A stretch of DNA of 64,000 bases, from NCBI GenBank assembly GCA_937925855.1, contig CALAMO010000045.1:1-64000 (forward strand). Direction: 5' to 3'. The notes beneath the pieces are model-generated. The model was not told where the DNA came from, made no database searches, and saw only the letters and a list, made by a program, of their open reading frames with translations. The stretch is from an uncultured Thiotrichaceae bacterium (lineage in GTDB: Bacteria; Pseudomonadota; Gammaproteobacteria; Thiotrichales; Thiotrichaceae). Numbering within the stretch: the stretch's first letter is position 1; each line of letters starts with the position of its first letter. Made by a program: the position numbers and the translations under genes. This document shows, piece after piece, positions 31,443 through 45,651 of the stretch.

Positions 31443-33149
31443 CTATAACAGTCCCGCCATCACCTGATTCACCTCAGCGCTGTTCAAGCGCGCCGTCTTA
31501 CCGCTCGGCGGTAAGGCCTCCGCATGGAAAAACGCTGGCAGCTCATCATCTGCCTCCGTAAATCCAGCCAATCGGTTAAATGCCTTCTCCAGGCGCAGCG
31601 CTTCTGCCCCCAGTTCGCGAATAGCCGCTGGGGCAATGGCAGTACCAAAAGCACCGTTAATCGCATCCGCAATCAGCTGTAAATTCGGATCAGTCACGGT
31701 ACGCCCGAAGATACACAGACCCAGCGAATCAGCCACCGCGCTATTAAGCTGCATCTTATAGCTTTCCCCCACCAGCGTTGCTACCGTCTCCCCTTCACAG
31801 GGAAAAGTCGGCGCATTGCCGACAGTATGATCAGCGCCCTGCGCCGTCAACATCATCGAGATGCCGGTCACTTCGATCAGGCGCGGATCATAGGCACTAA
31901 TGGCCTGATTTTTGATCACCGGAATGCGCGCAACCTGTAGCGCTTTACCCACCGCCGCCGTGCCCTGCGCCAGCAAGCGACCGCGTTCACTGTCGGTATA
32001 CAGCTCATCTAAACAGCGCTGCATAAACGCCACATCGCCGAACTCACCCTCACCCGCTTCCATCAGCACGCCAATTGTCGCCCCGAGCTCAATGCTGTCG
32101 ATGCCTAAATCATTCGCCGTCTCATTCAGCCGCGCCACATCATCCGGGTCAGTCAAGCCACAGTTACTGCCCAATAGGCCAAGCGTTTCGTATTCCAGCG
32201 GCGACACCAGCTCGCGCCCGCTATCATCCACATACACATTACTGCATTTAATCAGGCAGCCCGGCATACAGGCATGCGAGGTGTCACCGCCACGGGCGGT
32301 ATTCAGCTCACGGATATAATCACCGCCAAGCTTAAAAGTTTCTTGCTCACGATCCACCAGCTGTCCAGCAGAGAAATTACGCACTGGCATCGCGCCCATA
32401 TAATTAGTAATGTCACCCACCATGGCGGTACCAGTCGACTTCAGCACCTGAATAACCGGCCCGGCATCCAGCTGCTTACCGTATTCACGCACCGCCCCCA
32501 TCACCTTTTTGCGATCATGTAGCGGCGGCATCTTCAACTTGTCCATCACAATAGCTTTCACTTTTTTCGAACCCATGACAGCGCCCACACCTCCGCGCGC
32601 CGCCAGCCGCGACGGTCGGTTATCGGTATCCGAAAACGAGATACCGGCCATTAAACCCTGGTATTCGCCGACCGGGCCACACAGCGCCAGCGAAATTTTG
32701 TCGCCGTATTGTTCATGCAGGCGGCGAGCGCACTCCACATTGCCCAGCCCCAGATAAGGACTCGCGTCGACAAAATTAATCGCACCGTCTTTAGTGATGC
32801 GGATCAGCACCCAATCGTCCGCCACACCGTGTAGCGTTAGGGTCGCAATCTGTAACTGCCCCATCGCAAAGGCAAAAGTCCCACCGCTGTTAGCTTCCTT
32901 AATTCCCCCAGTCAGTGGGCTTTTACAACCCACGCTCAGGCGGTTCGCATTAGAGAAATTTGTCCCGGCGAATGGCCCAGCAGAAAAAATCAGCGGATTC
33001 TCTGCGGATAACGGCTCTACCCCAGCGATATTCTGCTCCAGTAGGCGTTGAGCAATCAGGTGACGCCCCGCACTTAGCAGCGCCTCACCTGTCAGCGTAG
33101 TCCGCTCGATGTGTTGATCGTCCAGTCGAATATCAATGGAATCACGCAT
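31443..33149 (-). CDS. aor: Tungsten-containing aldehyde:ferredoxin oxidoreductase
   Basis: A 568-residue enzyme of the AOR family that oxidises aldehydes to carboxylic acids with a tungstopterin and a [4Fe-4S] cluster. Visible features: VEPLSAENPLIFSAGPFAGT, RLSVGCKSPLTGG and SRLAARGGVGAVMGSKKVKA (pterin-binding), SPLEYETLGLLGSNCG, and the cluster cysteines C294-x3-C298-x3-C302 with C479 (SLGLCIFG). The N-terminal spacing C-x3-C-x3-C differs from the C-x2-C-x3-C of Pyrococcus AOR. No AorA/AorC electron-transfer subunits are adjacent. It sits between an ABC importer and paaX, suggesting an aromatic aldehyde such as phenylacetaldehyde as substrate. Confidence 0.9.
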   Translation of the reverse strand: MRDSIDIRLDDQHIERTTLTGEALLSAGRHLIAQRLLEQNIAGVEPLSAENPLIFSAGPFAGTNFSNANRLSVGCKSPLTGGIKEANSGGTFAFAMGQLQIATLTLHGVADDWVLIRITKDGAINFVDASPYLGLGNVECARRLHEQYGDKISLALCGPVGEYQGLMAGISFSDTDNRPSRLAARGGVGAVMGSKKVKAIVMDKLKMPPLHDRKKVMGAVREYGKQLDAGPVIQVLKSTGTAMVGDITNYMGAMPVRNFSAGQLVDREQETFKLGGDYIRELNTARGGDTSHACMPGCLIKCSNVYVDDSGRELVSPLEYETLGLLGSNCGLTDPDDVARLNETANDLGIDSIELGATIGVLMEAGEGEFGDVAFMQRCLDELYTDSERGRLLAQGTAAVGKALQVARIPVIKNQAISAYDPRLIEVTGISMMLTAQGADHTVGNAPTFPCEGETVATLVGESYKMQLNSAVADSLGLCIFGRTVTDPNLQLIADAINGAFGTAIAPAAIRELGAEALRLEKAFNRLAGFTEADDELPAFFHAEALPPSGKTARLNSAEVNQVMAGLL

Positions 33150-33183
33150 GCTTTAATCCTTTTAAAATCCATTCAGAAGCTAG

Positions 33184-33211
33184 CCTATGACCGCCATACC
33201 GCAGTTATAGG
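33184..33211. promoter_or_regulatory. Inverted repeat upstream of the AOR gene
   Basis: CCTATGAC (33184-33191) and GTTATAGG (33204-33211) pair as an 8-bp inverted repeat with one G-T wobble and a 12-nt spacer, 35-62 nt before the AOR ATG. It could be an operator. The 166-bp gap holds no gene. Confidence 0.35.
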
Positions 33212-33315
33212 ATAACGTCACCTCACTTTACCGAAGCGCCCGCAACACGGCAATTATCCCGCTACATCCGCTGCATTAAACGCGGTCTCGTCTATTCATC
33301 CACCGTATTAAAACA

Positions 33316-34329
33316 CTATCCCGCAGGCAGCGACTCGCTGCCACCGCTGTCATTAGGCCCAATGCCTCCAAAGCGCGCATAATAATCAGCCGCAGGCAGC
33401 GACAACGGCACGGTCACGGACTCAGCCACACTGAGAAAATAGTCATCAGCAGGTGCACTCAGAGCCAAATAAAGCTCACGGGTCAGATGACGCGCCCGCC
33501 AGCCCGCAGCATCCTCAGGCAGTAACTGTGCAGGCCGTTCCGCCTCGCGCAGAAGAATATGGCGGTATTTATGAATCAGCAGGGTACGCACCAAAAAACA
33601 AAGCTCAGGTTCTAAGGCCACATTATCACCTTCTGTCACAGCCGCTGCCTGCACCGCCAACAACAGCGGTTCAAAACAGGCGATGAATGCCCGATAGTCC
33701 GCCTCTGTTTGCTGCTGCTCCAGGCTGCGGCTGATTAAGCGATTAGCAATAGCCGTATCGCAGGCATCAACGCTGCCCTGCAATAGGGCGACCTGCTCAT
33801 GCAGGCCGCGCTCCTGTAACATGCGCCGGACACCATTAGGATCAGCCGTGGGATGGATATAAACCCCCGCCGCTAAGCGACTAAAACCGAGCCAAACCAA
33901 CTCCTTACGCACCACGTCCCGCTGCTCTGTATCCAGGTCCCCCAGCGCCGTCATCACCAGCTGCCAGCCGCCCTGCCACGGCGGCGGTGCCGGTGCATAA
34001 ATACGGCGGGAGGCGCTGGCAAACTGCCGTAGCCCGCGCCCGGTCAGGGTGTAATAACTGCGCCGCCCAAGCTGGCGGGAGGTTAAGATGTGCTTTTCAG
34101 TCAAACGGTATACTGAAGTGCGCACCAGACGCTCACTAATCCCCAGCGGCTCCACCAGCTTAATCAAACTGCCGAGCCAGAGCGTGCCGCCAAACGGGCA
34201 AATCGTATCGCCATAAAGCGTAACCAACAGAGAATTAGCGTGTAGCGGGCGGGCGGCGGCAAAGTCTGCAATGAGCAGGCGTGCTAGCGCGCTGAAAGGG
34301 GTGCGCGGTTGCGCAGACGGCTGAGTCAT
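33316..34329 (-). CDS. paaX: Phenylacetate degradation repressor PaaX
   Basis: A 337-residue GntR-like/PaaX-family regulator. The N-terminal winged-helix part has SLLVTLYGDTI, GGTLWLGSLIKLVEPLGISERLVRTSVYRL and RRSYYTLTGRGLRQ, and the central PaaX domain has WQLVMTALGDLD. In known systems PaaX represses paa operons and releases DNA on binding phenylacetyl-CoA. Slightly longer than E. coli PaaX (316), with a Gly/Ser-rich tail. It is divergent from paaIJK and upstream of the AOR gene in the same direction, so both sides may be under its control. Confidence 0.93.
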   Translation of the reverse strand: MTQPSAQPRTPFSALARLLIADFAAARPLHANSLLVTLYGDTICPFGGTLWLGSLIKLVEPLGISERLVRTSVYRLTEKHILTSRQLGRRSYYTLTGRGLRQFASASRRIYAPAPPPWQGGWQLVMTALGDLDTEQRDVVRKELVWLGFSRLAAGVYIHPTADPNGVRRMLQERGLHEQVALLQGSVDACDTAIANRLISRSLEQQQTEADYRAFIACFEPLLLAVQAAAVTEGDNVALEPELCFLVRTLLIHKYRHILLREAERPAQLLPEDAAGWRARHLTRELYLALSAPADDYFLSVAESVTVPLSLPAADYYARFGGIGPNDSGGSESLPAG

Positions 34330-34338
34330 CTAAAAATT

Positions 34339-34380
34339 ATGATACACAACGTAAAATTCAGCAAATTTTTCATATATCAT
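34339..34380. promoter_or_regulatory. Candidate PaaX operator region between paaX and paaI
   Basis: The 86-bp divergent gap has ATGATA at 34339-34344 and TATCAT at 34375-34380 in inverted orientation, about 36 nt apart, within an AT-rich stretch. The left side TATGATACACAACG resembles the TGATTCG-type PaaX site of enteric bacteria in part. Both divergent promoters must lie here. Confidence 0.45.
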
Positions 34381-34415
34381 AGCACCATAACCCTGCAAAG
34401 ATAGCGCGCCCGCCC

Positions 34416-34871
34416 ATGACACTAATGACACCACACCAGTTAGCCCAAGCCTGCAGTCAGGCCATGCACGCCAATGATTATGCCTCAAATTGGCTGGGGA
34501 TAAGCCTGCTTGAATCGCTACCCGGCGAGGCCACGCTCAGCATGCAGGTTACCCAAAATATGGTCAACGGGCATGGCATTTGTCATGGCGGCCTGATTTT
34601 CACACTATGCGATACGGCGTTTGCCCACGCCTGCAATAATACCAACCACAACACCGTCGCCTCTGGTTGTACCATCGACTTTCTCGCACCCGCCCACGTC
34701 GGTGACCAGCTAAGCGCACGCGCGCAGCAACGCTCACGCAGCGGACGTACCGGTGTTTATGATGTCGAAGTGCATAATCAGGACGCTGTTTTATTGGCGG
34801 TCTTTCGCGGCAAATCCCATCAAATCAAAGGCGCTTTAGTAGACACCCACCCAGCGGAACACACCGTATGA
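34416..34871 (+). CDS. paaI: Hydroxyphenylacetyl-CoA thioesterase PaaI
   Basis: A 151-residue hotdog-fold thioesterase. The signature HGGLIFTLCDTAFAHACN contains the catalytic Asp/Gly pattern. The CTIDFLAPAHVGDQL segment is typical. In the aerobic phenylacetate pathway PaaI rescues CoA from dead-end hydroxyphenylacetyl-CoA. Its stop overlaps the paaJ ATG by 4 nt. Confidence 0.92.
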   Translation: MTLMTPHQLAQACSQAMHANDYASNWLGISLLESLPGEATLSMQVTQNMVNGHGICHGGLIFTLCDTAFAHACNNTNHNTVASGCTIDFLAPAHVGDQLSARAQQRSRSGRTGVYDVEVHNQDAVLLAVFRGKSHQIKGALVDTHPAEHTV

Positions 34872-36070
34872 AACAAGCCTTCATTTGTTCTCCCCTGCGC
34901 ACGCCAATTGGTCGCTTTGGCGGTGCGCTCGCACCCATTCGTACTGATGATTTGGCAGCACTGCCCATCAGCGCCCTCATGGCGCGCAATCCAGGCGTAG
35001 ATTGGCAGCGGGTTGATGATGTGGTGCTCGGCAATGCCAATCAGGCCGGAGAAGACAACCGCAATTTGGCACGCATGGCCGGGCTACTGGCGGGGCTGCC
35101 GATTTGCGTCCCCGGCTTAACCGTCAATCGCCTATGTGCCTCCGGGCTGGATGCGGTCAATATCGCGGCGCGCGCTGTAAAAGCCGGAGAAGCTGAGCTG
35201 CTTATCGCCGGTGGCGCGGAATCCATGACCCGTGCGCCCATGGTGATGCCAAAAGCCGGGACAGCCTGGAGCCGTAAGGCAGAAATTTACGATACCACCA
35301 TCGGCTGGCGCTTCATCAATCAGCAGATGCACAAATTATACGGCACGGACTCCATGCCAGAAACGGCGGAAAACGTCGCGCACGACTTTAATATTTCACG
35401 CCCCGACCAGGACGCCTTTGCGCTGCGCTCCCAGCAAAAAGCCGCCGCCGCACAAGAAAATGAGCGGCTCGCCCAGGAAATCATCCCAGTCAGCCTACCG
35501 CGGCGTAACAAAGACCCGCTTATTTTTACGCATGATGAACACCTGCGCCTCAGCCCGCTAGAGAAGCTGGCCGCACTGCCGACACCGTTTCGTCAAGGGG
35601 GCTGCGTCACGGCGGGTAATGCTTCTGGGGTGAACGATGGGGCCTGCGCCATGCTGATTGCGGCAGAGTCAATGCTACAGCAGCAGTCACTGACGCCGCT
35701 GGCCCGCATTGTTGCGACAGCGGCCGCTGGCGTAGCCCCGCGTATTATGGGCATTGGTCCGGTGCCCGCCACGCAAAAAGTGCTGACACTGAGCGGCTTA
35801 ACGCTGGCGCAAATGGATGTTATCGAGCTGAATGAAGCCTTCGCGGCACAGGGACTCGCAGTCTTGCGTGAGCTGGGTCTGGCCGACGACGATGAGCGCG
35901 TTAATCCCAACGGCGGAGCGATTGCACTTGGCCACCCGCTGGGCATGAGCGGCGCACGCCTAGTGACTACAGCGGCTTATCAGCTACAACGGACGCAGGG
36001 ACGCTATGCGCTATGCACAATGTGCATCGGCGTTGGCCAGGGAATGGCGATGATTATCGAGCGGGTGTAA
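34868..36070 (+). CDS. paaJ: 3-oxoadipyl-CoA/3-oxo-5,6-dehydrosuberyl-CoA thiolase PaaJ
   Basis: A 400-residue thiolase. The nucleophilic Cys is in [13 protein letters not shown], the His in [15 protein letters not shown] and the second Cys in [13 protein letters not shown], all of the degradative thiolase type. The N-terminus [18 protein letters not shown] and [22 protein letters not shown] match PaaJ/PcaF. It performs the last beta-oxidation-like cleavages of the ring-opened phenylacetate product. Neighbours PaaI and PaaK favour PaaJ over PcaF. Confidence 0.92.
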
Positions 36071-36144
36071 GGTGAAGCAAATCGGTGCTGACGTGCATCG
36101 ATCACAGCAGAAAAACAGCTTAAGTTGAACAGAGGAAAAGGCAA

Positions 36145-37440
36145 ATGACAGACTTTCCAGCAATCACGATTACTAATTTTGAGACGGCTAGCCGCGATGA
36201 AATTGAGGCTGTCCAGCGGGCACGCTTGCAGTGGACGCTGCAACATGCTTATGCCAATTCCCCGATGTATAAACAGAAGTTTGACGCAGCAGGCGTACAT
36301 CCCAGCGATCTAAAACAAAGCAGTGACATCAGCCTGTTTCCTTATACCACCAAGCAAGACCTGCGTGATAATTATCCCTTCAACACTTTCGCGCTGCCGA
36401 TGGAACAGATCGTGCGCATCCACGCTTCCAGCGGCACCACCGGCAAGCCCACCGTCGTCGGTTACAGCCAGGGTGACATCGATCGCTGGGCAGAGCTGGT
36501 CGCGCGCTCGATTCAGGCCGCAGGCGGCACCGCCAAAGACAAGGTGCATGTCGCCTATGGCTACGGCCTGTTTACCGGCGGCCTAGGCGCACATTATGGC
36601 GCAGAAAAAATGGGCTGTACGGTCATCCCTTTTGGCGGTGGCCAGACCGAGCGTCAGGTGCAGCTGATACAGGATTTCAAGCCGGACATTATTATGGTCA
36701 CGCCCTCGTACTGCCTAAATATCGCCGATGAATTTGAGCGCCAAGGGCTGGATCCGCGCCAATCCTCACTGCGGGTTGCGATTTTTGGGGCAGAACCTTG
36801 GACCAATGCGATGCGGGCCGAAATTGAAACGCGCATGGGGCTAGATGCGGTCGATATTTATGGCCTGTCGGAAATTCTCGGCCCCGGTGTCGCGCAGGAA
36901 TTTGTTAGCACAAAAGATGGCCCAACGCTGTGGGAAGACTGTTTCTACCCTGAAATTGTTGATACTGAGACGCTACAGCCGGTGGCAGACGGCACAGAAG
37001 GTGAACTGGTGTTTACCACGCTGGTGAAAGAAGCACTGCCAATTATTCGTTATCGTACCCGCGACCTGACTCGGCTGCTGCCGGGCAGCGCTTGTCATAT
37101 GCGCCGCATGGAAAAAATCACCGGGCGCAGTGACGATATGATGATTATTAGGGGCGTCAACGTGTTCCCCACGCAGATTGAGGAACTGATTCTACAGACC
37201 GTAAATCTATCACCGCATTACCAGCTGGAAGTGTATCAGGACGGCAATATGGCCGGGCTAACGGTGAACGTGGAAATCGCTGATAACACGGCGTCTCAAA
37301 TCGCCAGAGCGCAGGCGGCACAGGCATTACAACAGTCGATCAAGTCGATGATTGGGATTAGCGCGGAGATTAAGGTGAAAGCCGAGGGGGAAGTGGCACG
37401 GTCGCAGGGCAAAGCGCAGCGGGTGGTGGATGTACGGTAG
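36145..37440 (+). CDS. paaK: Phenylacetate-CoA ligase PaaK
   Basis: A 431-residue adenylate-forming ligase that activates phenylacetate to phenylacetyl-CoA, the first step of the paa pathway. The ATP-binding loop is HASSGTTGKPTVVGY. YGLSEILGPGVAQE is characteristic of PaaK. The hinge region is YRTRDLTRLLPGSACHMRRMEKITGRSDDMMIIRGVNVFP, and the C-terminal domain ends with a Lys-rich stretch. GAGGAAAAGGC precedes the ATG. It is 74 nt after paaJ. The paa ring-oxygenase and hydrolase genes are not in this window. Confidence 0.95.
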   Translation: MTDFPAITITNFETASRDEIEAVQRARLQWTLQHAYANSPMYKQKFDAAGVHPSDLKQSSDISLFPYTTKQDLRDNYPFNTFALPMEQIVRIHASSGTTGKPTVVGYSQGDIDRWAELVARSIQAAGGTAKDKVHVAYGYGLFTGGLGAHYGAEKMGCTVIPFGGGQTERQVQLIQDFKPDIIMVTPSYCLNIADEFERQGLDPRQSSLRVAIFGAEPWTNAMRAEIETRMGLDAVDIYGLSEILGPGVAQEFVSTKDGPTLWEDCFYPEIVDTETLQPVADGTEGELVFTTLVKEALPIIRYRTRDLTRLLPGSACHMRRMEKITGRSDDMMIIRGVNVFPTQIEELILQTVNLSPHYQLEVYQDGNMAGLTVNVEIADNTASQIARAQAAQALQQSIKSMIGISAEIKVKAEGEVARSQGKAQRVVDVR

Positions 37441-37502: not shown

Positions 37503-37889
37503 TTAGAACGCGACCACTGTCCACCCATCCGGCTGCAGCTTCCCATCAGACAGCAAAATCTTCTCATCTGCCTTGAACCCACGATAACGTTCCAGGTTCT
37601 CCGCTACGATGCGCCCAAAGGCCGTGCGGAAAATCACCGAGCGTGACTTCAGGTCAGCCAACGGCCCCAACATCGCCTTATCAGTTCCGATCGTCACCAC
37701 CTGATAGCGCGCCGCTGCGGCGTGCGTATCAATCCAGTCCTGCATCGCTGAGAACTTAGGCTTCATCGCAAAGGACGTATCGACCACGACTAACACCTGC
37801 TGCGGGTTCTGGTTCAGGTAAACATGCGCCGCCGCCCAGCCCACAATATGCAGCACGGCGAACAGCGCAAACACCTTCAGCCACTTCAT
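37503..37889 (-). CDS. Small membrane-anchored protein with VWA-like fold
   Basis: A 128-residue protein. Residues 1-25 are a single N-terminal hydrophobic segment, probably an anchor. The rest opens VLVVVDTSFAMKPKFSAMQ, a degenerate VWA/MIDAS-like motif (DTSFA in place of DxSxS), and later contains ILLSDG, similar to the conserved second half of a VWA strand. It lies 4 nt downstream of the SBP-VWA lipoprotein gene and is surely cotranscribed. I do not recognise a named family. Confidence 0.7.
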   Translation of the reverse strand: MKWLKVFALFAVLHIVGWAAAHVYLNQNPQQVLVVVDTSFAMKPKFSAMQDWIDTHAAAARYQVVTIGTDKAMLGPLADLKSRSVIFRTAFGRIVAENLERYRGFKADEKILLSDGKLQPDGWTVVAF

Positions 37890-37893
37890 CGCG

Positions 37894-39597
37894 CTACATC
37901 TCCGAATTAAGCAAATTACCGATACGGTACGCCGCCGACCCAGCAGAGGACTCGACGTACGCCCCCTCAGCCAGCGAGGCTAAATCCTTCAGGTGGGGTG
38001 AACTCAGTTCATAAGCAATCGCGTGCACCGGAATACCCGACCATTCCAGCGCACTTTTCACGCTGTCAAAATCCAGCCCGCGATTCGTCTCGCCATCCGA
38101 TAACAGGAAGATCACGCGCTTATGATCGGGATACTGCTTACCGTATTCAATCAGCTGATTCGCTGCGACCAGCACCGCATCATTAGTCGCGGTCTTACCC
38201 CCAGTGGTTAAGCGTCCGACCGCACCGCTGAACAAGGCTTTCTGCTGCACATCAAACGGACGAATATACAAATCCACATTAACGCGCTCACTGTAACTGA
38301 CGAGGCCAATCGCATTGGTCGAGCTAATCAGGTCAGCCGACTCAATCAGCGCCTCTTTCAGATTACGAATCCGTAGCCCTTCCATCGAACCGGAAACATC
38401 GGCCACAAACACGGCGGCAATCGGACGCCCCCCTGATTTTTTCTGTTTCCACAGCTTCTGCGCCTGCCCAAGCAGCGAGCCATCGGCCAGCTGATAAGCA
38501 TCAACATACGCTGCATTGCGCCCAAAACCAAAGCTATTCGCTGCCTGCTGCTGAGTTTTAATGAACTGTGCAAACAGCTTTAACACCTCACGCTCCGCCG
38601 GGTCGGCTTCTGGCGTAGCATACAGCGGGCTGTCATGGCGCACGCCAAAGGGCACAAAGGTATAGTCATCCATACCCGTCACATTAACCCAGGACTGATG
38701 CTCCATCACCAGCGCGTCCAACACGCCGCTGCCCTGGGCTGCATCGCGCATTTGCAGCGTGTTCTGCGCCACAAACGGCACACCGGCCTGAAATGCCTCA
38801 AACGCACTCGCCACATCGGGCGACAGCATCTGTGACTCATCGCCCTGGGCGAAGGCATCCAACACCGTCAGCAAGAAATTCAGCCCAGTACTGGACTGAT
38901 AGGGGTTGGTATAACCCATCGCAAACTGGCCGCTGCTCACATTAGTCAACAGCTTGGCAATATCGAGCTGGCCGTCGCTGGTGATCTGGTCGATCTTTGA
39001 TTTTTTAACGATAATCCCGGCGGTATTGGGCGCAGTGCGCTCGGCAATCATCTCCAGCGGGATGCCACTGGCGCTGAGCATCTTGCCCCACAGGAAATTA
39101 CTGGGCGAATACGCATCCGGGGTATAGCGTCGTGCTAGCATAAACTGTGCGCCTAAACCGGAAGCCATTTTACGAATTGCCACCCTGGCCTGCTTGCCGT
39201 TGCTAATAGTCAGCCGCTCACGGTTAAACGCCTCCGCCAGCTCCAGATAAAATCCGTCGCGGCCCTGGCCGGCTTTTTCAGAAGAGGTAAAAATCTCCAC
39301 CGCTTCGGTGCGCGTATCGTCACGCACATTCAGCGCCAGCGGGTACTCACGCAGATCGGGCAGCATCGCTAATAGATTCGTCTTACTCAGCTGGATATTC
39401 GCGCGCACCTGATTTTCATCATAGGTCGGCTGCACCGTATCCGTCACCAGCGCATTGATTCTTGCGGCGGCACTTTCTGGGCTGTCGACGTTCGAGCCGC
39501 AGCCCGGTAATAGCGTGCCGGAGAATAGACTAATGCATAGCAGTGCAAACAGCGCTTTAATCCCTGAAGCGCCGCGTTTTTTTCTGTGTCGTGTCAT
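37894..39597 (-). CDS. Lipoprotein fusing a solute-binding domain and a VWA domain
   Basis: A 567-residue lipoprotein with lipobox LLPGC (C33) after a basic N-terminus. Residues about 60-380 resemble a type 2 periplasmic substrate-binding fold (PLALNVRDDTRTEAVEIFTSSEKA, VASAFEAFQAGVPFVAQN). Residues about 393-560 are a VWA domain with a complete MIDAS: DVSGS (about 399-403), the Thr in TTGGKTATNDAV, and LLSDGETNRGLDFD. Proteins with this SBP-plus-VWA layout exist in other bacteria, often near TelA- or XpaC-like genes, but their role is undescribed to my knowledge. It is the central member of a three-gene operon. Confidence 0.82.
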   Translation of the reverse strand: MTRHRKKRGASGIKALFALLCISLFSGTLLPGCGSNVDSPESAAARINALVTDTVQPTYDENQVRANIQLSKTNLLAMLPDLREYPLALNVRDDTRTEAVEIFTSSEKAGQGRDGFYLELAEAFNRERLTISNGKQARVAIRKMASGLGAQFMLARRYTPDAYSPSNFLWGKMLSASGIPLEMIAERTAPNTAGIIVKKSKIDQITSDGQLDIAKLLTNVSSGQFAMGYTNPYQSSTGLNFLLTVLDAFAQGDESQMLSPDVASAFEAFQAGVPFVAQNTLQMRDAAQGSGVLDALVMEHQSWVNVTGMDDYTFVPFGVRHDSPLYATPEADPAEREVLKLFAQFIKTQQQAANSFGFGRNAAYVDAYQLADGSLLGQAQKLWKQKKSGGRPIAAVFVADVSGSMEGLRIRNLKEALIESADLISSTNAIGLVSYSERVNVDLYIRPFDVQQKALFSGAVGRLTTGGKTATNDAVLVAANQLIEYGKQYPDHKRVIFLLSDGETNRGLDFDSVKSALEWSGIPVHAIAYELSSPHLKDLASLAEGAYVESSAGSAAYRIGNLLNSEM

Positions 39598-39606
39598 AGA
39601 AACTCC

Positions 39607-40314
39607 CTAGCTCCCTTTCGCAACCTGCGCCAATGCGACCAATCGCGCCAGCGTATCGGTGCGGTCAAACTGGCTAAATGACTGTATATTCGCGACTTCA
39701 ACCGCAGTATCCGTCAGGGCATCAAATAAATTGTTATTCTCATCCCGCAGCTCATCGAGGCGCTGCGCCTGTTCGGCATATAAGCCGGTATGCTTGTCCA
39801 TGCGCTCCTGCTGTGCGCTGGTGCTGATCAGGGCTGGATCGCGCTTATTATGAGCAATGGTGGACATGCTGTGTCCAATGGTTACCATGTCGGCCAGATT
39901 CTGGATGGCCTGTTTCTGCACGGAACGCGCCGCGCCGAGATAAGTAAGCGGGCTGTTCTTTTTACCAAAGAAGCGCGTTTCCACCACGGCATGGTAATCA
40001 TCAATAATCCCGGTCAGGGTATGTGCCTGCCGCTCGCCTTCTGCTAAATCGAGCCCAGCTAGTTCGGTTTTGAGTTGACCCAGCCGTGCAATCAGTTCGC
40101 CGTGTTCCTGCGCCTCGCGGGCCTGTAGCCATTCCATATCATCCGCCAGCGAGAACCCGGCGAAGCGATAGATCAGCGGTACTGTCAGAGCCGCCCCCAA
40201 GGACAACACCGTATACAGACCGGTCAATAGGAGATCGCCCTGGAACCACCCATAAAAGGCAGCAATCAGGCACAAAGATATTATTAGAGCACAGAGGGCG
40301 AACTGCTTAATCAT
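39607..40314 (-). CDS. Membrane-anchored coiled-coil protein, possibly XpaC-like
   Basis: A 235-residue protein with two N-terminal hydrophobic segments (about 6-24 and 30-52), then a largely helical, charged region with heptad-like spacing (EWLQAREAQEHGELIARLGQ) and a conserved-looking FFGKKNSPLTYLG block. I see a loose resemblance to XpaC-type proteins that occur with VWA/TelA genes, not enough to name it. First gene of the operon, 9 nt before the SBP-VWA gene. Probably faces the cytoplasm with a long helical stalk. Confidence 0.65.
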   Translation of the reverse strand: MIKQFALCALIISLCLIAAFYGWFQGDLLLTGLYTVLSLGAALTVPLIYRFAGFSLADDMEWLQAREAQEHGELIARLGQLKTELAGLDLAEGERQAHTLTGIIDDYHAVVETRFFGKKNSPLTYLGAARSVQKQAIQNLADMVTIGHSMSTIAHNKRDPALISTSAQQERMDKHTGLYAEQAQRLDELRDENNNLFDALTDTAVEVANIQSFSQFDRTDTLARLVALAQVAKGS

Positions 40315-43793: not shown

Positions 43794-45416
43794 TTATGCC
43801 AGCCAAGCGAACTCAGGCCATTCACAGCCACCGGCCTGTCCCAGCGGCACTTTAGGCATGCCCATAACATTCTTCGCAATACCATCATTGATATTGGAGA
43901 ACGCTGGAATCACCATGCCGCTATTATTATGGATCAGCGTCTGCATTTCACAGTACATTTCATGGCGTTTTGCTGGATCAAGCTCAGACAGCGACATCTT
44001 CAGCAACTCACCCATACGGTCATTATTCCAGTAGGTGTCATTCCACTTAGCACCGGGGCCAAACTGAATCGCCATCTGTGAGTTAGCCGTTGGGCGCATG
44101 TTCCAGGTCACCACGTTCAGCGGCTCCTTCATCCATACTGCACCCCAGTAGCCATCGGTCGGCACTTTCTTCAGCTGTAGGTCGAAGCCAATTTTAGCGG
44201 CGTTCGCCTGTGCCAACAGACAGGCATCTTCGATCCCAGATGTCACCGGCGCAACGAATAGTTCAGCACCATCGACACCCGCTTTCTTAAAGTGATGCTT
44301 GGCTTTATCGAGATCAAACATACGCTGTGGCAGCTCGGAACAGAAATCTGCGCCGTGTGCTGCTGAGATCGGCGTATCATTACCGATTGAGCCTTTGCCT
44401 TTCAGGATGCGCTTCACCACACGCTCGCGATCCATCAAATACTGCATACCCTTGACAAAGTCATTATTTTCGCCCGGCGCACTATTCTTTAGGCAGCAAA
44501 TACCCAGCTGCATCGCCGCCGGAATCGACGATAGGATCACATTGTCTGCGCCTTCAACCTGCCGGAATGCCTTGGGCTCAATCACAGTCGCAATCTGTAC
44601 ATCGCCCGCGATCAGTGCGTTAACCCGCGCCACCGGATCGGTTATCGCCGTAATCTCAATCGCATCCAGATTAGCGCCTTCACGCCAGTAATTTTCATTA
44701 CGCTTATGGACTGACTTCACGCCTGGCTCAAAAGATTCGGTCGTAAACGGACCGGTACCCATGCCGTCGCCTTTGCTGCCATTCTTCACGATTTTGTTCT
44801 GGAAAATCCCCAGCAAAACCGGCAGGTCAGCGTTCGGCGTGTTCATAACCGCCTTCACTTCGTGTGAACCAGTCTTTTCCCAGGCTTTAACCGAACTCAT
44901 CACCGCTTTAACCACCGACACTGAGTCATCACCCAGGTGGCGATTCATGCTGTACACCACATCATCCGCAGTAAAATCAGAACCGTCGTGGAACTTCACG
45001 CCCTTGCGCAGCTTAAATGTCCACTCCGTTGCGTCCGCATTCGCTGACCATTCGGTCGCTAGCTCTGGCTGTGGAGCCAGATCATCAGCGTGCTGGATCA
45101 GGCTGTTATAGACTGCACGCCCACGGGTATAATCAATCGTCGAGGTGAAGAGTGGGGGATCTTGTTTGTCATCTGGGCCGTGTAGATTAGAGGCGAAACG
45201 CAGCGTGCCGCCCTTCTTTGGCTCAGAAGCCATCGCCACCTTGGCGTCCAGCAATAAATGCTTAGCCGTCAGCAGTGACACCCCGGTCACCATTGACAGC
45301 TTCATCATTTCACGGCGCGTAATGCCTTTTTTAGCCAGTTTAACCGCCAGATCTTTATCCGATTGGGTTAAATCTTTGTAGCTTACCGCCGGGTGAGAAA
45401 GATTTGAGTCTTTCAT
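43794..45416 (-). CDS. Tat-exported oligopeptide-type ABC binding protein, no transporter genes adjacent
   Basis: A 540-residue SBP_bac_5 protein. The ATG at 45416 is chosen because GGAGGAG lies directly before it; an upstream ATG (45428) overlaps that site. A twin-arginine signal reads TRREMMKLSMVTGVSLL near residue 35, after an unusual polar N-region. The mature part has GGTLRFASNLHGPDDKQDPP, FKLRKGVKFHDGSDFTADDVVYS and ALIAGDVQIATV, typical of family 5. A terminator follows. No permease or ATPase is near, so it may be an orphan that serves a transporter elsewhere. Ligand unknown. Confidence 0.87.
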   Translation of the reverse strand: MKDSNLSHPAVSYKDLTQSDKDLAVKLAKKGITRREMMKLSMVTGVSLLTAKHLLLDAKVAMASEPKKGGTLRFASNLHGPDDKQDPPLFTSTIDYTRGRAVYNSLIQHADDLAPQPELATEWSANADATEWTFKLRKGVKFHDGSDFTADDVVYSMNRHLGDDSVSVVKAVMSSVKAWEKTGSHEVKAVMNTPNADLPVLLGIFQNKIVKNGSKGDGMGTGPFTTESFEPGVKSVHKRNENYWREGANLDAIEITAITDPVARVNALIAGDVQIATVIEPKAFRQVEGADNVILSSIPAAMQLGICCLKNSAPGENNDFVKGMQYLMDRERVVKRILKGKGSIGNDTPISAAHGADFCSELPQRMFDLDKAKHHFKKAGVDGAELFVAPVTSGIEDACLLAQANAAKIGFDLQLKKVPTDGYWGAVWMKEPLNVVTWNMRPTANSQMAIQFGPGAKWNDTYWNNDRMGELLKMSLSELDPAKRHEMYCEMQTLIHNNSGMVIPAFSNINDGIAKNVMGMPKVPLGQAGGCEWPEFAWLA

Positions 45417-45651
45417 GAACTCCTCCATTTATTAATAAAGCACCTGAATCCTAACATAATAAGTGGAAGATATGCGGCATTCACTGCCACAAATTAAGGG
45501 TTAAGTGGAATGCTCGATAATCCTGGACTAGCTTATGCATTGCCTCGTGTCAATCCGGGGTGGTTTCTGCGGTCAATGTGTGAACTGTATTTTGCTGGTA
45601 GATCAATGCTCTCTTCTTATAAGCTGTCGCTAGAGCGATTTAACATTACCA

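Follow-up and report, generated by a model that had tools for sequence, protein, structure and literature searches.

What is the function of the three-gene operon that occupies positions 37503-40314 on the minus strand of contig CALAMO010000045.1, from an uncultured Thiotrichaceae bacterium related to filamentous sulfur bacteria? The window analyzed here is the whole 64,000-nucleotide stretch of that contig. The first-pass annotation had described the operon as an envelope gene cluster, and the open reading frames (ORFs) confirmed its coordinates, its gene order and its tight spacing of 9 nt from C to B and 4 nt from B to A:

39607-40314, minus strand: gene C, ORF of 235 amino acids (aa); two N-terminal membrane spans followed by long helices, predicted to be cytoplasmic (model, hydropathy)
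37894-39597, minus strand: gene B, ORF of 567 aa
37503-37889, minus strand: gene A, ORF of 128 aa, found in 47 of 47 loci; a single N-terminal span, then a short domain of VWA-like type

Gene B encodes a lipoprotein in which a solute-binding protein (SBP) domain is joined to a VWA domain. We give an even chance to the reading that the operon encodes a trans-envelope stress module that senses a small ligand.

The three genes behave as a unit. Thirty-nine relatives of B were found at 59-80% identity and the order and strand of the genes were kept in 52 loci, so that C, B and A are regarded as real genes. A scan of a species-genome collection for B relatives gave 47 named loci (L021-L067 in our numbering), most of them labeled Thiotrichaceae (Thiothrix, Leucothrix) and Granulosicoccaceae, with others from Motiliproteus, Reinekea and Parendozoicomonas. 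A was present in all 47 loci and C in 45; in both loci that lack C (L055 and L065) the contig ends inside B. Among all loci examined, A was present in 65 of 65 and C in 62, the three misses being contig ends; this total counts some contigs twice, from two collections (L002-L019 partly repeat contigs of L021-L067), and leaves out L020, which matched the VWA domain only. The C-B-A order and strand were unchanged in all 52 loci for which spacing was printed (C present in 50). The next most frequent neighboring gene cluster within 4 kb was present in 10 of the 47 loci, and other neighbors varied by lineage. Conserved order and presence amid changing neighbors indicate that the three genes form one unit, and their conservation together in relatives was the test set beforehand for the cluster. 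The window genome has one match each to full-length B and full-length C. Full-length B is uncommon: in the class sample of 369 genomes it was found in 5, and three of these belong to the family of the window.

The features of B were assigned as follows:

39499-39510, minus strand: lipobox LPGC (residues 30-33), with Cys33 in 50 of 52 aligned rows
38428-39318, minus strand: type II solute-binding domain (residues 94-390), from the AlphaFold model and fold comparison
37897-38427, minus strand: VWA domain (residues 391-567), from the AlphaFold model, fold comparison and the residues of the metal ion-dependent adhesion site (MIDAS)

The AlphaFold model of B, in which residue numbers are one lower than in the protein, has two domains, with a mean predicted local distance difference test score (pLDDT) of 83.5 and a predicted template modeling score (pTM) of 0.73. 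Residues 94-390 matched a sulfate-binding protein best (5um2; VIA-align Z 23.7, root-mean-square deviation (rmsd) 4.0, 280 residues aligned), followed by thiamin, phospho-sugar and iron receptors in VIA-align and Foldseek. Residues 391-567 matched the VWA domain of 4fx5 (VIA-align Z 22.9, rmsd 1.7, 172 aligned), and B matched Pfam VWA with an E value of 7.4e-13. The MIDAS residues D400, S402, S404, T469 and D501 were invariant in 52 of 52 rows, as was T471, and the MIDAS was also invariant in 15 sequences with identities down to 19%. The fusion of an SBP fold to a VWA domain with an intact MIDAS in one lipoprotein, as first proposed, is thus borne out by fold comparison and alignment; the absence of an SBP domain from the predicted fold would have spoken against that proposal, and the domain is present in the model. 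Residues 228-242 of the SBP domain (GYTNPYQSSTGLNFL) are among the best conserved parts of B, and this suggests that the ligand site is functional. The fold by itself does not reveal the ligand, which would be small and probably anionic.

The fold matches and the lipobox bear on two other explanations. The best matches of the first domain of B are receptors of importers (sulfate, thiamin, iron and phospho-sugar), as expected if B were a receptor that scavenges solutes for a distant ATP-binding cassette (ABC) importer while the VWA domain, A and C only position B in the envelope. An ABC-ATPase motif was found within 5 kb of C-B-A in only 1 of 47 loci, in an ORF of 627 aa (30 of these loci extend for 5 kb in both directions), and VWA domains and proteins such as A and C are not known as usual components of importers. 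We consider the importer explanation unlikely. In E. coli, the residue after the lipoprotein cysteine guides membrane sorting (the +2 rule). This residue of B is Asp in 5 of 50 rows and another amino acid in 45, which by the +2 rule would place B in the outer membrane. Such a location would suit an envelope assembly or repair device, in which A and the VWA domain of B form a MIDAS-dependent scaffold between the outer and inner membranes and the SBP domain is a structural element or a clamp for peptidoglycan precursors. SBPs fused to OmpA-like domains, found near a second TelA lineage described below, also favor a scaffold. The strong conservation of GYTNPYQSSTGLNFL is as expected for ligand binding and argues against it, and a motif scan within 5 kb of C-B-A detected no MoxR-type motif pair in any of the 47 loci, 30 of which extend that far in both directions. 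The scaffold explanation is improbable, though it should be kept in mind.

A third explanation is a surface-adhesion or secretion-linked device, in which the VWA domain of B binds a host or matrix ligand. The VWA matches of B include adhesins (4okr and 6tnj), and a gene resembling GspE/PilB ATPases (judged by eye) lies directly upstream of C in L039:5181-7133 and L047:1116-3026; in a lineage of 10 loci, a related gene is separated from C-B-A by about 7 kb. Outside these 12 of 47 loci no such gene was near C-B-A, C has no exported part large enough for display, and B has relatives whose genes are associated with those of TelA and XpaC. We regard an adhesive or secretory role as very improbable. 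The first-pass annotation had suggested a ligand-sensing or a surface-adhesion/assembly device; ligand sensing is judged the better half of that suggestion, and little was found for surface adhesion.

Protein C is a helical membrane protein:

40162-40311, minus strand: two membrane-span helices (residues 2-24 and 28-51), from the model and hydropathy
39613-40155, minus strand: helical domain (residues 54-234), homologous to C2 (hhalign)

C2 is the coiled-coil partner of TelA, a protein of stress resistance, in the second TelA lineage. The AlphaFold model of C (mean pLDDT 83.9) consists of two hydrophobic helices followed by long helices, and hydropathy placed the spans at residues 5-23 and 30-48, in agreement with the earlier description of a two-span coiled coil. 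The loop between the spans is short, which would put both ends of C on the same side, most likely in the cytoplasm. A Pfam search of C gave no match at E≤1, PF10112 included. Foldseek comparison of the model with the PDB gave no match with E≤0.001 and hence no clue at the level of fold. Profile comparison established homology between C and C2 (hhalign 98.1%, E 9.6e-14, 197 columns); the real alignment scored 97.0, compared to 20.2 for the best of 30 shuffles and 24.0 for a reversed alignment. Profile matches to C were weak or absent in cyanobacteria, Miltoncostaea, Deinococcus, Streptomyces, Thiodictyon and Sphaerotilus; the best distant match was one Stanieria protein (71.5%) over 27 residues in the membrane spans only.

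Protein A has a single span:

37818-37874, minus strand: membrane span of A (residues 6-24), from hydropathy

D37 and S39 of A were present in 53 of 53 rows, T69 in 52 and D115 in 50. Position 41, where a MIDAS has its last serine, is occupied by Ser in 24 of 53 rows and by Ala in 24, the window among the latter. The positive-inside rule relates the charge around a span to its orientation. The mean net charge of A is +1.8 before the span and +0.4 after it (53 rows), which suggests that the domain lies in the periplasm. The Pfam VWA gathering score was not reached by A, with 7 of 44 members matching at E≤10 (best 0.011); VWA_2 was matched by 4 of 44 members at E≤10 (best 0.0063). The A profile aligned with the VWA domain of B over only a 23-column LLSDG stretch, with a probability of 2.2%. 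A can be called VWA-like by its motifs only. The earlier label of a small anchored VWA-like protein stands for the single span and the retained motif residues; the Pfam and profile comparisons fell short of it. An A-like gene lies directly downstream of the B genes of the cyanobacteria Stanieria and Pseudanabaena, in the latter downstream of the second of two B genes. Two of the three cyanobacterial A-like genes scored 14.7 and 13.4 bits with the A profile. The third scored 3.6 bits, less than an SBP-VWA protein (6.5 bits), and was assigned by its location and general resemblance to A. The pairing of B with A may be ancient.

The SBP-VWA architecture is also found in cyanobacteria, actinobacteria, Deinococcus and betaproteobacteria. 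Plasmid records, searched at the protein level, yielded cyanobacterial SBP-VWAs with 31-32% identity to B over 91-97% of its length, as well as more remote ones in Miltoncostaea and Deinococcus; further SBP-VWAs were reached from these in Streptomyces, Thiodictyon, Sphaerotilus, Variovorax and Nonomuraea. The gene order SBP, TelA, SBP-VWA, two-span protein was found in Sphaerotilus and Variovorax and, by ORF comparison, in Nonomuraea, and Deinococcus has the same order without TelA. This set is present in L180, L182, L183, L243 and L244 (the TelA of L243 by coordinates), and a set of TelA, SBP-VWA, XpaC and SBP is present in L247 and L251.

At least 9 of 369 genomes of a phylum sample, the window genome included, have a full-length SBP-VWA, defined as a match from position ≤82 to ≥551 of 570; weaker ones may be missing among the matches listed. 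In these matches, to which the counts in this paragraph refer, TelA was over the cut-off in 9 of 9 SBP-VWA genomes compared to 62 of 369 overall (hypergeometric probability 6e-8, and 1.8e-5 when each family is represented by a single genome; family f218 supplies four of the nine). TelA lay just upstream on the same strand in 7 of the 9. A separate SBP gene was present in 7 of 7 loci with TelA directly upstream, and an XpaC or XpaC-related gene in at least 4 of the 7. The separate SBP gene has no Pfam hit and is annotated as hypothetical; its profile of 12 proteins matched the SBP domain in alignment A4 (hhalign 98.6%, E 5.5e-16, 280 columns; reversed control 0.1%). XpaC (PF10112) follows SBP-VWA in L247 and L251 with 89.3 and 94.2 bits (cut-off 29.8) and also in L245 with 50.9 bits, where no TelA lies beside SBP-VWA. 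L243 and L244 have the Sphaerotilus-type two-span protein, which is related to XpaC: the group of six matched XpaC at 89.5% with the first profile and 96.2% with a larger one (reversed controls 2.9% and 2.1%). Scans detected no XpaC-like ORF in the XpaC slot of L248-L250.

TelA was also traced around the family of the window itself. In the class sample, 5 of 5 genomes with full-length B have TelA, compared to 39 of 369 overall. XpaC lies beside TelA in 24 of 25 gammaproteobacterial TelA loci (L112-L136), the exception being a contig end. In the second TelA lineage, C2 lies beside TelA in 11 of 13 loci (L141-L144 and L146-L154); of the other two, one lies at the end of a contig. TelA adjoins C-B-A divergently in Motiliproteus, Reinekea and Parendozoicomonas, and is in each case the only TelA above the cut-off in the genome. 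In trees, the TelAs of these three genera group with the C2-linked TelAs, apart from the XpaC-adjacent ones, on branches with 100/100 support, and the same 100/100 branch separates the XpaC-adjacent rows in the midpoint-drawn tree. Two TelA trees, the midpoint-drawn tree and a 35-row tree, were built without L154 and four XpaC-adjacent rows.

In L147:1676-10882 and L144:4678-12741, gammaproteobacterial loci of the second TelA lineage, one run of genes encodes an SBP-OmpA fusion, a VWA protein, another SBP-OmpA fusion, C2, TelA, an ABC permease and an ATPase, with a further SBP in L147. This run resembles an expanded form of the same design that includes a transporter. Its permease and ATPase also favor the importer explanation, since the run is related to the operon. 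A 1102-aa ORF beside a second-lineage TelA in L142:3462-6770 matches C2 over part of its length. A 1136-aa ORF in genome G036 also touches the C profile.

Several observations weigh against a sensory module of the TelA kind. TelA is adjacent to C-B-A in only 3 of 47 loci, and the sole TelA of the window genome lies on another contig, in an XpaC-TelA-SPFH locus. TelA is nearly universal in the family of the window (34 of 36 genomes), and co-occurrence inside that family is therefore uninformative. Homology of B to the TelA-linked SBP-VWAs lies mostly in the VWA half and in chained matches; taken alone, its SBP half matched Miltoncostaea (7e-7) and Deinococcus (0.002). TelA-linked rows were part of profile A4, and this biases the profile toward finding more of them. 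The separate SBP matched the window family alone at 2.8%, and no homologue of it was detected at E≤0.01 with the 12-protein profile in the ORFs of the window and the 47 loci. Homology of C to XpaC was considered and is unsupported, with profile comparisons of 15-18% (reversed controls 1.6-2.4%), and A is VWA-like at the level of motifs. In the 35-row tree, which carries a long-branch warning, the TelAs of L247-L251 group with the XpaC-adjacent TelAs, and those of L180, L182, L183, L243 and L244 with the C2 lineage. Earlier trees had suggested that TelA divides cleanly into one lineage with XpaC and another with SBP/VWA; this division was given up on the placement of L247-L251.

The first-pass annotation had heard in the operon an echo of sets of XpaC, TelA and VWA genes. 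The echo is real in the wider family, where TelA adjoins 7 of the 9 SBP-VWAs among the matches listed and XpaC is found in L245, L247 and L251, and it fades in the operon's own family, where TelA is rarely adjacent and C is not recognizably XpaC. The neighborhood check that it had proposed, for TelA or AAA-MoxR genes, thus gave the three TelA neighbors and, in the motif scan (30 of 47 loci with 5 kb on both sides), no MoxR pair. The TelA locus of the window genome (L070:7904-12583) consists of a run of genes for XpaC, TelA, an SPFH protein that carries a GYF_2 domain, and a protein that matches a zinc finger weakly.

Comparison with named systems places the operon more closely. The proteins annotated in RefSeq as 'Substrate-binding and VWA domain-containing protein' (WP_162570944.1 of Variovorax and WP_332880827.1 of Streptomyces) have, like B, an SBP followed by a VWA domain with an invariant MIDAS; their SBP is PF13531 and their identity to B is about 20%. 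The Variovorax gene is preceded by TelA and SBP and followed by a gene for an XpaC-related two-span protein, whereas none of these lies beside B in the window. The TelA-XpaC pair (yaaN/xpaC of Bacillus, lmo1966-1967 of Listeria) combines TelA with a two-span helical membrane protein similar in type to C. It differs from the window in that C falls below PF10112 and TelA is not adjacent. Operons that unite XpaC, TelA and SBP-VWA occur in other classes of the phylum. Published work on the Listeria XpaC-TelA operon connects TelA and XpaC with tolerance to nisin and tellurite, their function being not well established (PMC12791056). Ter systems resemble the operon in that TelA occurs with a VWA protein (TerF) in a proposed sub-membrane structure (PMC7824862). 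Unlike the VWA proteins of Ter systems, the VWA domain in the window is exported and fused to an SBP. TerY is a further VWA protein of Ter systems. The plasmid loci of Stanieria and Pseudanabaena are like the window in having a full-length SBP-VWA and an A-like gene downstream, in Stanieria with a nearby gene for a two-span helical protein, and differ from it in nearby SPFH, kinase or caspase-like genes; no match to TelA was found in the stretches of these loci that were read.

Of the features of the TelA/XpaC/SBP-VWA/SBP set, the operon has an SBP-VWA with an intact MIDAS, the SBP by predicted structure. It is not classed with that set because an adjacent TelA, a PF10112 XpaC and a separate SBP were not found at the locus; we propose that it acts in the way of such a set. 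The operon is a branch of a widespread, poorly characterized kind, without an adjacent TelA, with a different two-span protein and with an extra VWA-like miniprotein. No description of an SBP-VWA/TelA system was found among the matches listed in the titles and abstract openings of open-licence papers.

If the operon is a small-ligand-sensing module, B would capture its ligand in the type II solute-binding domain, and the ligand state would alter the grip of the MIDAS-bearing VWA domain on a partner. The likely partner is A, which would be anchored in the inner membrane and extend its VWA-like domain into the periplasm. C, passing twice through the inner membrane, would connect, by a signal or mechanically, to a cytoplasmic helical scaffold; the cytoplasm is where TelA-type proteins are thought to work and where related systems have TelA. 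In the C-B-A branch, the XpaC slot would be taken by another two-span helical protein, TelA would be unlinked and the VWA-like miniprotein would be an addition. The output would probably be tolerance to envelope stress or toxicants.

SBP-VWA was seen in four phyla and TelA lies beside it in two of them. A broader and more tentative proposal, less likely than not, is that TelA, an XpaC- or C-type two-span protein, SBP-VWA and an accessory binding protein constitute one ancient trans-envelope receptor, in which the solute-binding domain would signal a specific ligand, by way of a MIDAS switch, to TelA as a scaffold beneath the membrane; C-B-A would then be a branch that functions by itself, without its own TelA. 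The SBP domains in TelA/XpaC operons suggest that a ligand is read outside the inner membrane, and C-B-A, as a compact three-protein version, is suited to a search for that ligand.

Other genes were observed near these loci. In Variovorax (L182:10493-13446), genes annotated as a Wadjet anti-phage system, JetA among them, lie about 2-3 kb past the SBP-TelA-SBPVWA operon. On the cyanobacterial plasmids L173, L174 and L175, SBP-VWA lies near genes annotated as SPFH/prohibitin, FHA, serine/threonine kinase, and CHAT or caspase family, and the two SBP-VWA genes of Pseudanabaena are in tandem. On one side of the operon in the window (31443-37440) are genes that by eye resemble aldehyde:ferredoxin oxidoreductase, PaaX, PaaI, thiolase and phenylacetate-CoA ligase. 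About 3.5 kb beyond its other side, positions 43794-45428 encode a 544-aa protein that by eye resembles a peptide-type binding protein.

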